Below are positions 46,145 through 55,472 of a stretch of DNA of 55,818 nucleotides, in pieces. The notes under the pieces are model-generated. The model ran no database searches, was not told where the DNA came from, and saw nothing but the letters and a program-made list of their open reading frames with translations. Where the stretch lies: NCBI GenBank assembly GCA_026991135.1, contig JALXCD010000095.1:1-55818 (forward strand), given 5' to 3'. Source of the DNA: Deltaproteobacteria bacterium (GTDB lineage Bacteria; Desulfobacterota; Dissulfuribacteria; Dissulfuribacterales; QOAL01). Position numbers and translations under genes: made by a program. The first letter of the stretch is position 1. Every line of letters begins with the position of its first letter.

Positions 46145-47638
46145 TTAATGGACTTCAAAAACAAGGTTTGACCAGAAACCTCCGCATGTCTCTCTACTGT
46201 TTCCGCTGCATCTCATAATACAGTTATTTGCCCTTCCGTATTTTCCATAGGAGTTTCCGCAAAAGCACTGGCTTCCATACTGTACCCCTGCATATTTAAA
46301 GCCTTTATTTCCACAAATAGTAATGCACTTTCTCTGGGTCATGTTGGGAGCGGAAACAAAGTAACCATTTAGATCCCTGTTAGGGTTGTCCTTGAAACAG
46401 CCAAGGTTTTTTCCAGTGTGAATGCGTGTTTTTGGCCTCAATTTAGATGAATTTCCGGGAGATGTTGAACTCCTAAGCTCATAAATATCGTTTGCCCAGA
46501 ATCCACCGCATATCTCATTGGGATTTCCATTGCATTTCATATTGCAGTTATTTGCCCTTCCATATTTTCCATAGGAATTTCCGCAAAAGCACTGACTTCC
46601 ATATTGCACCCCGGCGTATCTGAATCCCCTTGAATTACAAAAAGAAATGCATTTTTCAATAGTCACTGGAGCTCCCTTGTTGGCACCCCAGCCTGGAAAG
46701 GCAGCTCCATTTAAGTCTCGTCCCCTAAGTCCGAAGGGATCACCTTGATCCTTAAAACAACCAAGTCTTCTGGCGTTGGGAGATGGGCGTGGTGGATTTT
46801 GACCTGTGCCAAAAATTAAATTTGCCCAGAACCCACCACAGATTTCATTGGCGTTGCCACTACATTTCATATTACAACTGTTTGATTTACCGTATTTTCC
46901 ATATGAATTTCCGCAAAAGCACTGACTTCCATATTGCACCCCTGCGTATTTAAAGCCCTTATTTCTGCAAATGGAAATACACTTTTCATGAGTCATGTCT
47001 GCCGATGATATAAAGAATCCGTCAAGGTCCCTTGCCCGGTCATCCCTAAAACAACCAAAGTTATTTTTCCCCGGGCGGACTGGGAACTTTGTTTTTACGC
47101 CTGAAACACAATTGGGATTTTTGGATGGAGGTGGAACTGTATCCTTAAGCCAGCATTTAGGAAGAGGTCCCTGAAAGGTATTCGGTTTTACAAAGGTCCA
47201 GGCCTTACATTTTGGTTCGGAGAGGCAAATTTGCATACATCTTTTTGGATCATTTACCTTAAGGTCCACATTTCTATAGTCATGTCCCATCCTATCTATT
47301 CCATATTCTATTGAGCTGAAACTACCTTTATTTGAATAGGCTGGCCTTAACCGATTTAAAACCTTATTTAAGGCACTTATTTCATCCATTAATACCTTAA
47401 CTCTAGCCTCTCCACAAAAACACTGATCAATATTTTGATTACCTGTGATTACTTTTGGAGGGCATTTGTATCCATAAATGGCATAGCCATTTACCCCGCG
47501 TTCTCCTTTTTTGACTCGTGAAAGTTCTGCCTTTTTGGCCCTTATAAGTTGCTGAATATCTTGACATTTGGGATTTATGGCAAAAGAAAGATTTGGGAAA
47601 AGAAAAAGTATAAGAAGTGCAAAAAGAATCTTTTTCAT
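46145..47638 (-). CDS. Secreted cysteine-rich protein with PAN/Apple-like and three WSC domains
   Basis: The 497-residue product starts at ATG 47638 (SD GAGGAGA), with a signal peptide (MKKILFALLILFLFPNLSFA). A unique Cys-containing N-terminal part and a PAN/Apple-like segment follow (YGIDRMGHDYRNVDL, CMQICLSEPKCKAWTFV). Three WSC domains then come at roughly 195-280, 290-385 and 405-497. Each has LGCFKD/FGCFRD, RDLNG, KCIxxC, YAGVQYGSQCFCGNSYGKYG and CGGFW. WSC domains bind carbohydrate in yeast cell-wall sensors and fungal enzymes and are uncommon in bacteria. An extracellular polysaccharide-binding role is likely but unproven. The three units are very similar, which suggests recent internal duplication. 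It converges with the BFN gene. Confidence 0.85.
   Translation of the reverse strand: MKKILFALLILFLFPNLSFAINPKCQDIQQLIRAKKAELSRVKKGERGVNGYAIYGYKCPPKVITGNQNIDQCFCGEARVKVLMDEISALNKVLNRLRPAYSNKGSFSSIEYGIDRMGHDYRNVDLKVNDPKRCMQICLSEPKCKAWTFVKPNTFQGPLPKCWLKDTVPPPSKNPNCVSGVKTKFPVRPGKNNFGCFRDDRARDLDGFFISSADMTHEKCISICRNKGFKYAGVQYGSQCFCGNSYGKYGKSNSCNMKCSGNANEICGGFWANLIFGTGQNPPRPSPNARRLGCFKDQGDPFGLRGRDLNGAAFPGWGANKGAPVTIEKCISFCNSRGFRYAGVQYGSQCFCGNSYGKYGRANNCNMKCNGNPNEICGGFWANDIYELRSSTSPGNSSKLRPKTRIHTGKNLGCFKDNPNRDLNGYFVSAPNMTQRKCITICGNKGFKYAGVQYGSQCFCGNSYGKYGRANNCIMRCSGNSRETCGGFWSNLVFEVH
46221..46960 (-). repeat. Three near-identical ~325-base WSC coding repeats
   Basis: The block encoding YAGVQYGSQCFCGNSYGKYG and the following Cys region recurs with starts near 46221, 46545 and 46875 (spacing 324 and 330 bases), with only scattered substitutions. 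It marks internal duplication and is a possible site of copy-number change. Confidence 0.8.
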
Positions 47639-47757
47639 TATCTTTCTCCTCAAGTACCTTTGGCTGAGATATTATAATTCATAAATCGTCTATTTAAAGT
47701 GTCCTGTATCTATCAACTTTAATAATCCGGATATTAAAGATCCCATACCAATTGACT

Positions 47758-50166: not shown

Positions 50167-51483
<1,317 letters not shown>

Positions 51484-51510
51484 AAAGAGTTGCCTATAAA
51501 GCTACTAGTG

Positions 51511-51540
51511 CAGGTGGTAGATTTTGCCACCTGTTTTTTT
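51511..51540 (+). terminator. Rho-independent terminator after eno
   Basis: CAGGTGG (51511-51517) and CCACCTG (51527-51533) form a perfect 7-bp stem around a 9-base loop and are followed by seven T. It lies 28 bases after the eno stop. Confidence 0.9.
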
Positions 51541-51582
51541 GTCTTTTTAATGTAAGAACCCGGTCGAGTGCCATTCAATTTA

Positions 51583-51611
51583 TTGACAATAAACCGTTTG
51601 GTATTTATAGA
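51583..51611 (+). promoter_or_regulatory. Promoter of tRNA-Pro
   Basis: A perfect TTGACA (51583-51588) is followed after 17 bases by TATAGA (51606-51611). The predicted start near 51618 is only a few bases before the mature tRNA 5' end. Confidence 0.6.
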
Positions 51612-51619
51612 AATTGTGT

Positions 51620-51696
51620 CGGGACGTGGCTCAGTCTGGTAGAGCACAGCGTTCGGGACGCTGGGGTCGGAGGTTCAAATCCTCTCGTCCCGACCA
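51620..51696 (+). tRNA. tRNA-Pro (anticodon CGG)
   Basis: A full cloverleaf can be drawn over 77 bases. The acceptor CGGGACG pairs with CGTCCCG, the D arm is GCTC/GAGC, the anticodon stem CAGCG/CGCTG encloses TTCGGGA (anticodon CGG), and the T arm GGAGG/CCTCT closes TTCAAAT with one mismatch or wobble. The discriminator is A and the CCA end is encoded. It reads proline codon CCG. Confidence 0.96.
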
Positions 51697-51833
51697 AAAT
51701 TGTTTTTCCCTCCATTTGGTAGCTATTTAGCTAAAGAAAATTCTTTTAGTCCCAAAACCAAATTTTTATTTGCCTCAAATCCCATACCTTTTTAGAATCC
51801 CGTGATTAACTATTCTTTCAAGAAGGCGTAGAA

Positions 51834-53420
51834 ATGGGTGATCTTAATACCTCCTCAAAGGCACGGTCTGTAATCTTCCCAGCCCTTGTCCTCATAGCCG
51901 GATTTGTCCTGATCCTAATGGCCATGAGCCTTTTCAAATACTACAAAATGAAGGGCTCTTTTTTAAGGGATCAGCTTTCTTCCCTGGCAGAAAAGGAATT
52001 TCAAAAGGTTGACTCCCTTTTTAAGGAGATAAATGGAAAGCTTTTGGTCATTAGAGACATGGGCAAGAATCAGGCAATAGAACTTTCCGATGTGAAGGGC
52101 CTTAATAGGAAGTTTGTGGCCTTTATGAAAAACCAGGACATCTTTTCAGGCGTGGTTCTGGCAGATGAAAAGGGAGATGAATACTACCTTTATAAAAAAG
52201 ACGGGAGATGGATTTCACGGATTGGAAGGCCGTCAAAAAAAGGATTTGAATTTACATATTTTGAGTGGAACCCACCAAATGAACTAAAAAAGATAGAAGT
52301 TAAAAGGTCAGATCATGATCCCAGAAAACGCCCCTGGTTTCAAAATGCCCGTAAAAACCCAGGTATCCCTTGCTGGTCAACTGTTTACAGGTTCTTTGAA
52401 AAAAAGGCCATGGGTATTACCGTATCAATCGGCTGGAATTCAAAGGAAAAGGGCCTTATGGTCTGCGGGCTGGATATATCTTTAAAAAGGTTTCAGAAAT
52501 TGCTTAAACTTGATGAAAAAAAGACTAAAAACGGCCTGTTGCTGCTTATAAATACCAGGGCAGGTTTTTATTTATCAAGCAAAAGGGCAGGAAGGATATC
52601 TGACATATCAAGTGAAGAATCTTCGATAATTAAGATCTTGTTGTCAAAAATCCAGAAAAATCAAAGAAAAATAGATGCCATTCAAATAGGAGATGACAGG
52701 TGGCTTTGTTCCTTAAGGGCCTTTTCCAGTAAAAATTCAGGTTTTTTTATGGCCCTTGCTGTCCCTGAATCCGAGCTTGCCAGCGGATTAAAAAGGGGCC
52801 TATTTCATCCAGATGCCACTGAGATACTTGTTGCTGTCATAGGTGCGGTTTTGCTCTTTGGGCTTTTGTGGAAACTTGGTCTTTTGGATCGGTTCGGGAA
52901 GGGGATAAGAGAGCCTGCCATATTGAGGGTTAAAAGGTATCTAGACCAAGGCGAAGGTCCAAGGGTGGAATTTAAATCCACTGTTAGAAAAAATTTAAAG
53001 ACAGGAAAGCCGGGTAAGGAGATAGAGCTTTCCTGGCTTAAGGCAGTAGTTGCCTTTTTGAATTCAAATGGCGGTGCCCTTTTAATCGGGGTGGATGATT
53101 CTGGAAGGATAGTCGGCATTAAAGAGGACGGCTTTGAAAATGAGGATAAGTGCCTTTTACATATAAAAAATTTGATAAATCAGCATATTGGCCCTGAATT
53201 TTCAAGCTTTATCCATGTAAAGGCTGTGGATATAGATCCGGAAACTGTGATTCTTATTGAGTGCGATATGGCAAGGTTTCCTGTTTTTCTTAAAATCGGG
53301 AAAAATGAGGAGTTTTATGTGCGATCCGGCCCTTCTTCCATGAAGCTTTCCCCGAGTCAGATGATAAGCTATATCTTTCAGAATAAGAAAAGATATAAGG
53401 ACCTTAAGGGAAGGGGATAA
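51834..53420 (+). CDS. Membrane sensor (Cache-like) fused to AlbA_2/Schlafen-type domain
   Basis: The 528-residue product has a transmembrane helix at about 14-35 and a ~280-residue periplasmic region. That region has a dCache-like appearance (GVVLADEKGDEYYL, DPRKRPWF, ITVSIGW), the DPRxRPWF motif being frequent in dCache sensors. A second helix (ILVAVIGAVLLFGLLW, ~325-341) follows, and then a cytoplasmic AlbA_2 domain. Its signature parts are VEFKSTVRKN, AVVAFLNSNGGALLIGVDD and GRIVGIKEDG. AlbA_2 (Schlafen AlbA_2) domains occur in putative transcription regulators and Schlafen proteins. A transmembrane input coupled to this domain in place of a kinase or methyl-accepting domain is unusual. 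The next gene starts 1 base after the stop. Confidence 0.82.
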   Translation: MGDLNTSSKARSVIFPALVLIAGFVLILMAMSLFKYYKMKGSFLRDQLSSLAEKEFQKVDSLFKEINGKLLVIRDMGKNQAIELSDVKGLNRKFVAFMKNQDIFSGVVLADEKGDEYYLYKKDGRWISRIGRPSKKGFEFTYFEWNPPNELKKIEVKRSDHDPRKRPWFQNARKNPGIPCWSTVYRFFEKKAMGITVSIGWNSKEKGLMVCGLDISLKRFQKLLKLDEKKTKNGLLLLINTRAGFYLSSKRAGRISDISSEESSIIKILLSKIQKNQRKIDAIQIGDDRWLCSLRAFSSKNSGFFMALAVPESELASGLKRGLFHPDATEILVAVIGAVLLFGLLWKLGLLDRFGKGIREPAILRVKRYLDQGEGPRVEFKSTVRKNLKTGKPGKEIELSWLKAVVAFLNSNGGALLIGVDDSGRIVGIKEDGFENEDKCLLHIKNLINQHIGPEFSSFIHVKAVDIDPETVILIECDMARFPVFLKIGKNEEFYVRSGPSSMKLSPSQMISYIFQNKKRYKDLKGRG

Positions 53421-53421
53421 C

Positions 53422-54351
53422 ATGTCAAAAAAGGCAGACAATCTTTTGGAAAACAATGAAAAGGGTCTTCCCTGGCAAAGGCCAAAGCCAAGGGAAGAGG
53501 ACCCTGGCGCCTATCAACTTGTAAAAAGGATAATGGAGGACCCTGGTTATCGTCTTGCCGAGGAAGATATTGATTTTATACGGTCTTCAAAGACAAGGGG
53601 GATAAGGCTTCAGCTTGACTATCTAAAGGCGGAGCTTGCCCTTCAGGAATTAGGCGTTGAGCACACAATCGTGGTCTTTGGAAGCGCCAGAATATGTGAA
53701 AAAAAGACTGCCCTAAAAAGGCTTAAAAGGATACAAAAAAGGATAGATGAGGAAGGAAGCACCCCTGATCTTTTAAAAAAGCTCATCAAGGCAGAAAGGC
53801 TTTTGGAAAAAAGCGTCTATTATGATGACGCAAGGGAGTTTGGAAGGCTTGTTGGAAAAAGCGGACGCGGGCCCAAGGATTGCAGGGTGATTTTGGTAAC
53901 AGGTGGCGGGCCTGGCATAATGGAGGCTGCAAATAGAGGTGCCCATGACGTTGGTGCAAAATCCATTGGCCTTAATATAAAGCTTCCCCATGAGCAGTAT
54001 CCGAATCCGTATATAACTCCAGGGCTTTGTTTCCAGTTCCATTACTTTGCCATGAGAAAGTTGCACTTTCTCTATAGGGCAAGGGCCCTTGTGGTATATC
54101 CCGGGGGCTTTGGGACCCTGGATGAGCTTTTTGAGACCTTGACCCTTATCCAGACCGAGAAACAGGATCCTATGCCAGTTGTCATGGTTGGAAGAAGGTA
54201 TTGGGAAAGGCTTATAGATTTTGACTTTCTTGTGGAAGAAGGAAGCATTGCAGAAAGGGACCTAGAGATCTTTAGCTATGCCGACAGTGCAGTTGAGGCC
54301 TGGCAGACCATCCTCACATGGCATGAGAGGAAAAAAAGGCCCCTTTTCTAA
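53422..54351 (+). CDS. LOG-family (TIGR00730) nucleotide phosphoribohydrolase-like protein
   Basis: The 309-residue product has the LOG signature pair GGGPGIMEAANRGA and PGGFGTLDELFE, the nucleotide-binding and catalytic motifs of cytokinin-activating and nucleotide 5'-monophosphate nucleosidases (YgdH/PpnN-like). An extra N-terminal helical part of about 90 residues precedes the core. It is tightly coupled to the membrane sensor gene upstream. The substrate in bacteria is often AMP or other nucleotides, but this is not provable here. The end overlaps the converging radical SAM gene by 4 bases. Confidence 0.9.
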   Translation: MSKKADNLLENNEKGLPWQRPKPREEDPGAYQLVKRIMEDPGYRLAEEDIDFIRSSKTRGIRLQLDYLKAELALQELGVEHTIVVFGSARICEKKTALKRLKRIQKRIDEEGSTPDLLKKLIKAERLLEKSVYYDDAREFGRLVGKSGRGPKDCRVILVTGGGPGIMEAANRGAHDVGAKSIGLNIKLPHEQYPNPYITPGLCFQFHYFAMRKLHFLYRARALVVYPGGFGTLDELFETLTLIQTEKQDPMPVVMVGRRYWERLIDFDFLVEEGSIAERDLEIFSYADSAVEAWQTILTWHERKKRPLF

Positions 54352-55472
54352 GAAAATTTTTGGTAAGAAAGCTCAAGGTAAGGCCTTTTTTGAGGCCTGA
54401 TTTTGGCTGTTTTAGGAAATCTTTCATGGACGGATTTGGCTATTAGATAGTCAAGATGCCCAATGGACTTTGGTGTCCTTCCAAAGACCTCTTTCCAGAC
54501 ATTCCATCTTTCCATGCAAAGATAGGTGAAGCATTCACTTGCACCTGCCTCCCTTAAGGCGGCCAAAAGGTGTCTGAACATCTCTACCCTTATGGGTCTC
54601 GGATATCTGAATTTGTTGTCATCCCCAAGGACAAGCTCCTGGGCGGTTATCCTTGAAAAGGGGTAGTTTATCTCTATCTTTTTTTTCATCTCAGGGTTAA
54701 ATCTTAAGGCCCCAATGGATATCCAGATTACATTTTTAGGGCTTATGGCAGAAAAGATTTCCTTTATAAGCCCTTCATAGGCCCTTTCCCAGCCCCTAAA
54801 AAGGATCATGGGGTCAAAGTGAAGGCCAACAGGATAGCCTGCCCTTGAAACCTTCTCCATGGCCTTAAGCCTTTCTTCAAGGGTGGCTGTTCCGATCTCT
54901 TCACTTTTTATCACCTGGGGAGGATTGACTGTCCAGGAAATAACGGTCTTTCCGCCGTGGTCAACATCAAGAAGAGGCTCCACTGCCTTTCCCTTTGTCC
55001 TAAGCTTTAATACACAGTTTGGAAGCTCTTTAAATGCCTCAACAAGGCCAATAGAAGCCCTATTTAACGGTGAGGTGGCAAGGCTGTCACCAAGCTCCCA
55101 GGTTCCTATTCGAAAAAGCCTCCAGGGCATCCTACCCGTCTTTTCCCTGATTTCCTCAATGATTTTTTCTGTCTCTGCAATAACCGTCAGGGTGGTGTCT
55201 GTAAGATAGTTTTGCAAAAAACAATAGGTGCATTCAAAGGGGCAGTTACTTATATGGGAAATGACATGGGTGCTACAGCAGATATATCTTGGGTCAAGGG
55301 ATGCGCAGATGTGAAAGATCTCTCCCCTTTTGGGGCCTATAAAAAGATATCTCTTTCCCTGCCTGTAGTCTGATATCTTTGGGGAAGGGGATATCTCTGC
55401 CTCTTTTTTAAAAGGACTTAAAAAACCTTGCGTCTTAATTTCTGGATCTATGAATACCTTTTTAAATTTCAT
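54348..55472 (-). CDS. Spore photoproduct lyase-like radical SAM protein
   Basis: The 374-residue product has the radical SAM triad CPFECTYCFLQNYL (CxxxCxxC), with the following segments FRIGTWELGDSLATSP and GLHFDPMI, as in the SPL family. Family members in non-spore-formers are common in Desulfobacterota and have unknown substrates; repair of UV lesions is possible. A 74-codon gene ends 3 bases upstream and may be co-transcribed. Confidence 0.88.
   Translation of the reverse strand: MKFKKVFIDPEIKTQGFLSPFKKEAEISPSPKISDYRQGKRYLFIGPKRGEIFHICASLDPRYICCSTHVISHISNCPFECTYCFLQNYLTDTTLTVIAETEKIIEEIREKTGRMPWRLFRIGTWELGDSLATSPLNRASIGLVEAFKELPNCVLKLRTKGKAVEPLLDVDHGGKTVISWTVNPPQVIKSEEIGTATLEERLKAMEKVSRAGYPVGLHFDPMILFRGWERAYEGLIKEIFSAISPKNVIWISIGALRFNPEMKKKIEINYPFSRITAQELVLGDDNKFRYPRPIRVEMFRHLLAALREAGASECFTYLCMERWNVWKEVFGRTPKSIGHLDYLIAKSVHERFPKTAKIRPQKRPYLELSYQKFS

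Follow-up and report, generated by a model that had tools for sequence, protein, structure and literature searches.

A membrane receptor in which a periplasmic dCache sensor is joined to a Schlafen-type AlbA_2 domain is encoded near one end of the stretch of DNA analysed here (the window: 55,818 nt, contig JALXCD010000095.1 of assembly GCA_026991135.1, Deltaproteobacteria bacterium; Dissulfuribacterales; QOAL01). The receptor is real and belongs to a conserved family across Desulfobacterota. On balance, the locus is best explained by a one-component receptor whose sensor gates an output of the Schlafen type, either nuclease action or nucleic-acid binding, with the LOG-family gene beside it probably lying outside the mechanism.

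The receptor gene (51834..53420, forward strand) starts with ATG and encodes 528 aa; its assignment draws on the open reading frame, Pfam, 26 full-length homologues and a full-length AF2 model built from those homologues (mean pLDDT 83). TM helix 1 (aa 13-31; 51870..51926, forward strand) has a hydropathy peak of 2.85 and corresponds to the long helix H7-78 of the model, and TM helix 2 (aa 331-349; 52824..52880, forward strand) has a peak of 2.36 and corresponds to the helix at 328-347. Between these two hydrophobic helices lies an extracytoplasmic region of ~285 aa, placed as a dCache sensor (aa about 37-322; 51942..52799, forward strand) by profile, model and alignment with PctA. The SLFN_AlbA_2 domain (aa 374-505; 52953..53348, forward strand), defined by Pfam, homologue alignment and model, lies on the cytosolic side. 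Pfam, hydropathy, the AF2 model and Foldseek thereby bear out the order of TM segment, Cache-like domain, TM segment and AlbA_2 domain given in a first-pass annotation made from the letters alone, which had also placed a LOG protein one base downstream. The open reading frames and the LOG profile and structure matches agree: the receptor stop codon TAA occupies 53418-53420 and, after a gap of one base, the LOG ATG follows at 53422, with both frames open on the same strand.

A profile search, proposed beforehand as a check on the AlbA_2 assignment, gave a significant match of aa 374-505 to SLFN_AlbA_2 (PF04326; E=1.6e-21, 77.5 bits against a curated cutoff of 25.3). Residues E374, E379 and D422 (codons at 52953, 52968 and 53097, forward strand), which align with the Schlafen catalytic triad, are invariant in 26/26 full-length homologues at identities down to 37%. 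In a profile alignment to SLFN14 they fall on the E-x4-E-F-K and GVDD positions, which are catalytic in that protein. In rat SLFN13, mutation of E205 or E210 abolishes tRNA cleavage and mutation of D248 diminishes it (PMC5862951), and SAMD9L requires the matching site for translation shutdown (PMC11221667). The isolated domain was modelled with a pLDDT of 91, and a Foldseek search with it returned, at probability 1.00, a SAMD9 domain, the SAMD9 tRNase domain 9o0d, SLFN14, SLFN11 and SLFN13 (E=3.3e-5 for 9o0d, 5e-5 for SLFN14 and 1.8e-4 for SLFN13; query-normalised TM-scores about 0.4-0.6).

Also matched by Foldseek were the SAMD9-DNA structure 7ksp, which is among the top matches, the bacterial protein 3lmm and the RecG-related 2kyy domain. 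These relatives lend themselves to another reading, in which the protein is a membrane-tethered regulator and the ligand alters the grip of the AlbA_2 domain on DNA or RNA without catalysis. That the AlbA_2 domain of SAMD9 binds DNA, and that many AlbA_2 proteins of bacteria carry a regulator annotation, counts against a nuclease. However, Pfam recognised neither a winged helix nor any other domain for sequence-specific DNA binding in the receptor, and invariance of all three catalytic acids goes beyond what binding alone requires; a purely binding regulator is a serious but rather unlikely alternative.

Domains similar to the receptor's AlbA_2 also form the ends of GmrSD_N (DUF262) fusions in other genomes and in plasmids. 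The known GmrSD enzymes have an HNH nuclease part. A ParB plus HNH architecture has been given for GmrSD (PMC12839542). GmrSD_N (DUF262) proteins with a C-terminal AlbA_2 domain were observed in loci L141 and L146 and in plasmid hits H1 and H8, and they suggest that AlbA_2 may take the place of the HNH nuclease half in GmrSD-type enzymes. The triad, the fold and the GmrSD_N fusions favour a nuclease as the putative output.

Full-length homologues of the receptor, at 37-48% identity, are spread over Desulfobacterota. A profile search at E<=1e-20 gave matches in 39 of 395 genomes of the phylum, some of which cover one half of the protein only, and in the window's own bacterial family the receptor is present in 16 of the 18 listed genomes. 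Its neighbourhoods vary between genomes, and this variety together with the wide presence fits a resident signalling gene. Comparison with the sister species (84% identity) gave dN/dS values of 0.15 for the whole protein, 0.07 for AlbA_2 and 0.19 for the sensor, indicating purifying selection on a gene that is in use; the AlbA_2 domain is the more conserved part, and the sensor changes more quickly. In the receptor tree a long branch that holds the window and sister copies falls outside their congeners, and the neighbouring long branch L049 makes its exact placement uncertain; these copies have therefore either evolved fast or been replaced. Two short proteins of 268 aa (L144:1501-2304 and L147:1264-2070) combine a hydrophobic N-terminal stretch with AlbA_2, and no sensor domain was recognised in them.

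An anti-phage role, in which the Schlafen domain would be a tRNase that brings about abortive infection when triggered at the envelope, could be drawn from the GmrSD_N fusions of related AlbA_2 domains and from reports of Schlafen-family RNases in BREX neighbourhoods (PMC12839542); bacterial Schlafens are also reported to be anti-phage in a preprint known here through its citation in PMC12839542. Such a receptor is nonetheless improbable, as nearly all genomes of the bacterial family have the gene, mainly as a single copy, dCache domains respond to small molecules, and none of the flanking genes examined was recognised as a defence gene. The only PADLOC match of the receptor is a weak pAgo similarity through AlbA_2, and the locus was rejected as a defence locus on these last two grounds. 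A search of plasmids with the receptor gave matches limited to the AlbA_2 half.

The sensor was identified more clearly by the family than by the single sequence, whose dCache_1 Pfam score (E=1.1e-6, 28.9 bits) is below the curated gathering cutoff of 45. A profile of the 26 homologues matches solved dCache domains in the PDB with E down to 6e-8. Foldseek of the AF2 model gave the dCache domains of PscC, Mlp24, Tlp3, CtaA and PctA among its best matches, most of which have amino acids bound, and model and search together support a double-PDC fold between the two TM helices. The ligand motif of PctA comprises Y121, R126, W128, Y129, Y144 and D173, with the positions taken in part from PMC10104139. 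On alignment with PctA, R126, W128, Y144 and D173 are kept in the receptor as R166, W168, Y185 and D214. The equivalent of Y129 is Phe throughout the family (F169 in the window), and that of Y121 is H161 in the window and sister species and Tyr in 24/24 other homologues. These residues make an amino acid, or a small molecule related to one, the most plausible ligand, and the His at the first motif position, with the family-wide Phe at 129, makes the amino-acid prediction weaker for the window receptor. A shift of ligand specificity is possible in the window lineage. Changes specific to this lineage at otherwise fixed sensor positions are Y161H, W273I and F237L (51870-52799).

The neighbouring gene (53422..54351, forward strand, ATG start, 309 aa) encodes a LOG-family protein, matching Lysine_decarbox (PF03641; E=5.7e-30), solved LOG structures (E=1e-39) and TIGR00730 (100.8 bits, over the curated cutoff of 96.35). 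It shares the Lysine_decarbox domain and the TGGGPG and PGGFGTLDE motifs with the cytokinin riboside monophosphate phosphoribohydrolases of TIGR00730, but has an extra N-terminal extension of ~130 aa, and its linkage to a receptor is found in two species only. The first-pass annotation had coupled the two genes, with an extracellular signal controlling a nucleic-acid-binding or nucleotide-signalling output, so that receptor and LOG enzyme would work together as a signalling pair with nucleotides as its target. Their one-base spacing on the same strand is kept in the sister species, and in both species the two genes are likely to be co-transcribed; a consensus scan found no terminator-like site between the genes, and a promoter scan gave a result at chance level.

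Conservation of the pair across genomes, the check set beforehand for this coupling, was not observed. Among about 30 homologous Desulfobacterota loci, LOG adjoins the receptor only in the window and the one sister species, and it is absent from the fetched flanks of every other homologous receptor locus. Of 60 relatives, 50 have LOG-like genes and 30 have receptor-like ones. Six congeners have the order fabG-acpP-fabF-rpiB-glyA-dCMP deaminase-LOG, convergent with a photoproduct-lyase-like gene and without a receptor. In the window, the fab-rpiB-glyA-deaminase cluster is found at about 19.1-23.6 kb with other genes after it, leaving the deaminase 30 kb from LOG, which with the lyase-like gene stands beside the receptor; the gene names in this comparison are presumptive, being recognised from ORF sequences and not by profile search. 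The position of LOG after the deaminase in congeners, and its distance from it in the window, indicate that the adjacency was derived by rearrangement. A receptor-LOG signalling pair is thus highly improbable and LOG was rejected as a partner: the membrane receptor with a Schlafen/AlbA_2 output stands, and the coupling to LOG falls because the linkage is not conserved. LOG is probably a recent, lineage-specific neighbour and a bystander, and a local regulatory effect on its expression in the window and sister species is possible.

Synonymous divergence from the sister species (50206-55472 against L032) was 0.69 for enolase, 0.59 for the receptor, 0.22 for LOG and 0.09 for the lyase-like gene, and this sharp change along 5 kb hints at recombination. 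The lyase-like gene itself (54348-55472, reverse strand) is a spore-photoproduct-lyase-like radical SAM gene that scores well below the lyase equivalog cutoff and adjoins LOG throughout the genus.

A different neighbour recurs in one supported clade, mostly Desulfobulbaceae, where a family-3 solute-binding protein gene lies upstream of the receptor on the same strand in 9 of 11 loci. The gap between the two genes is 50-82 bp in seven loci, 324 bp in L041 and 1,674 bp in L040; the L043 protein starts with a lipobox-like signal (LLLTGC), and no permease gene was recognised beside the solute-binding gene. Upstream genes in L042, L043 and L045 are of MlaD/ABC-auxiliary type. The linkage is limited to this clade and absent from the window. 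Within the clade, an orphan amino-acid-type lipoprotein would probably serve to hand the ligand over to the receptor.

The favoured one-component receptor would work as follows. Its periplasmic dCache domain, of amino-acid-receptor type, would sense a small molecule outside the cell, probably an amino acid or a compound related to one, and the signal would pass through TM2 to the cytosolic AlbA_2 domain. Because the E/E/D triad of this domain is complete, the most likely output would be ligand-gated cleavage of tRNA or other structured RNA at the membrane; failing that, it would be binding. What the data show directly is the architecture, the conservation, the triad, the fold and the non-conserved LOG linkage; the ligand class, the nuclease activity, the RNA target, the sign of the response and the co-receptor role of the lipoprotein are predictions. 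In its most specific form, which we put forward tentatively and at less than even confidence, an external nutrient, in some lineages delivered by the lipoprotein, would directly switch a membrane-bound Schlafen-type tRNase and so control translation from outside in one step.

In most known one-component transmembrane receptors the output is a kinase, cyclase, phosphodiesterase, chemotaxis module or DNA-binding domain. The present receptor shares the TM-dCache-TM layout and most ligand-motif positions with dCache receptors and chemoreceptors such as PctA, Mlp24, Tlp3 and dCache-GGDEF proteins, but ends in AlbA_2 where those have a kinase, methyl-accepting or cyclic-di-GMP output. With the Schlafen and SAMD9 AlbA_2 tRNases (SLFN11, 12, 13 and 14; SAMD9 and SAMD9L) it shares the fold and the E/E/D triad; unlike them, it has a membrane anchor and an extracytoplasmic sensor, lacks an NTPase/helicase part, and its tRNase activity is putative. 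Vertebrate Schlafens form a two-lobed clamp, whereas the receptor has one AlbA_2 lobe. The GmrSD_N (DUF262) proteins described above have a closely related C-terminal AlbA_2 domain, with DUF262 in place of the membrane sensor and a restriction-like context. The literature searched contained no description of a TM-dCache-TM-AlbA_2 architecture, in keeping with the first-pass annotation, although the bacterial-Schlafen preprint, known by citation only, may mention membrane-sensor forms. If the proposal is correct, a Schlafen-type nuclease output would couple RNA cleavage directly to a signal from outside, and a domain familiar chiefly from antiviral defence would gain a role beyond immunity. Conservation of the family over Desulfobacterota with an intact triad makes the idea testable with a single purified domain.

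Some neighbouring features were noted separately. A tRNA-Pro gene (CGG; 51620..51696, forward strand) lies upstream of the receptor and was considered as a clue to a tRNase target or an insertion site; it was rejected as a coincidence because congeners keep enolase and then tRNA-Pro adjacent without a receptor. G004 is represented by a contig of only 4.6 kb, and its genome has two enolase matches on contig ends, so a strain mixture is possible there. Some members of the window's family have as the receptor's neighbour an exported protein weakly similar to Lnb_N. This exported family of 600 aa, with GGH and NCVT motifs, was seen beside the receptor in L035 (848-2767), L033, L096, L044, L087 and L090, and no member was found in the window's genome. 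Elsewhere in the window, positions 46145-47653 (reverse strand) encode an exported protein in which a profile search found three WSC domains and one PAN domain, a combination that is unusual in a bacterium.
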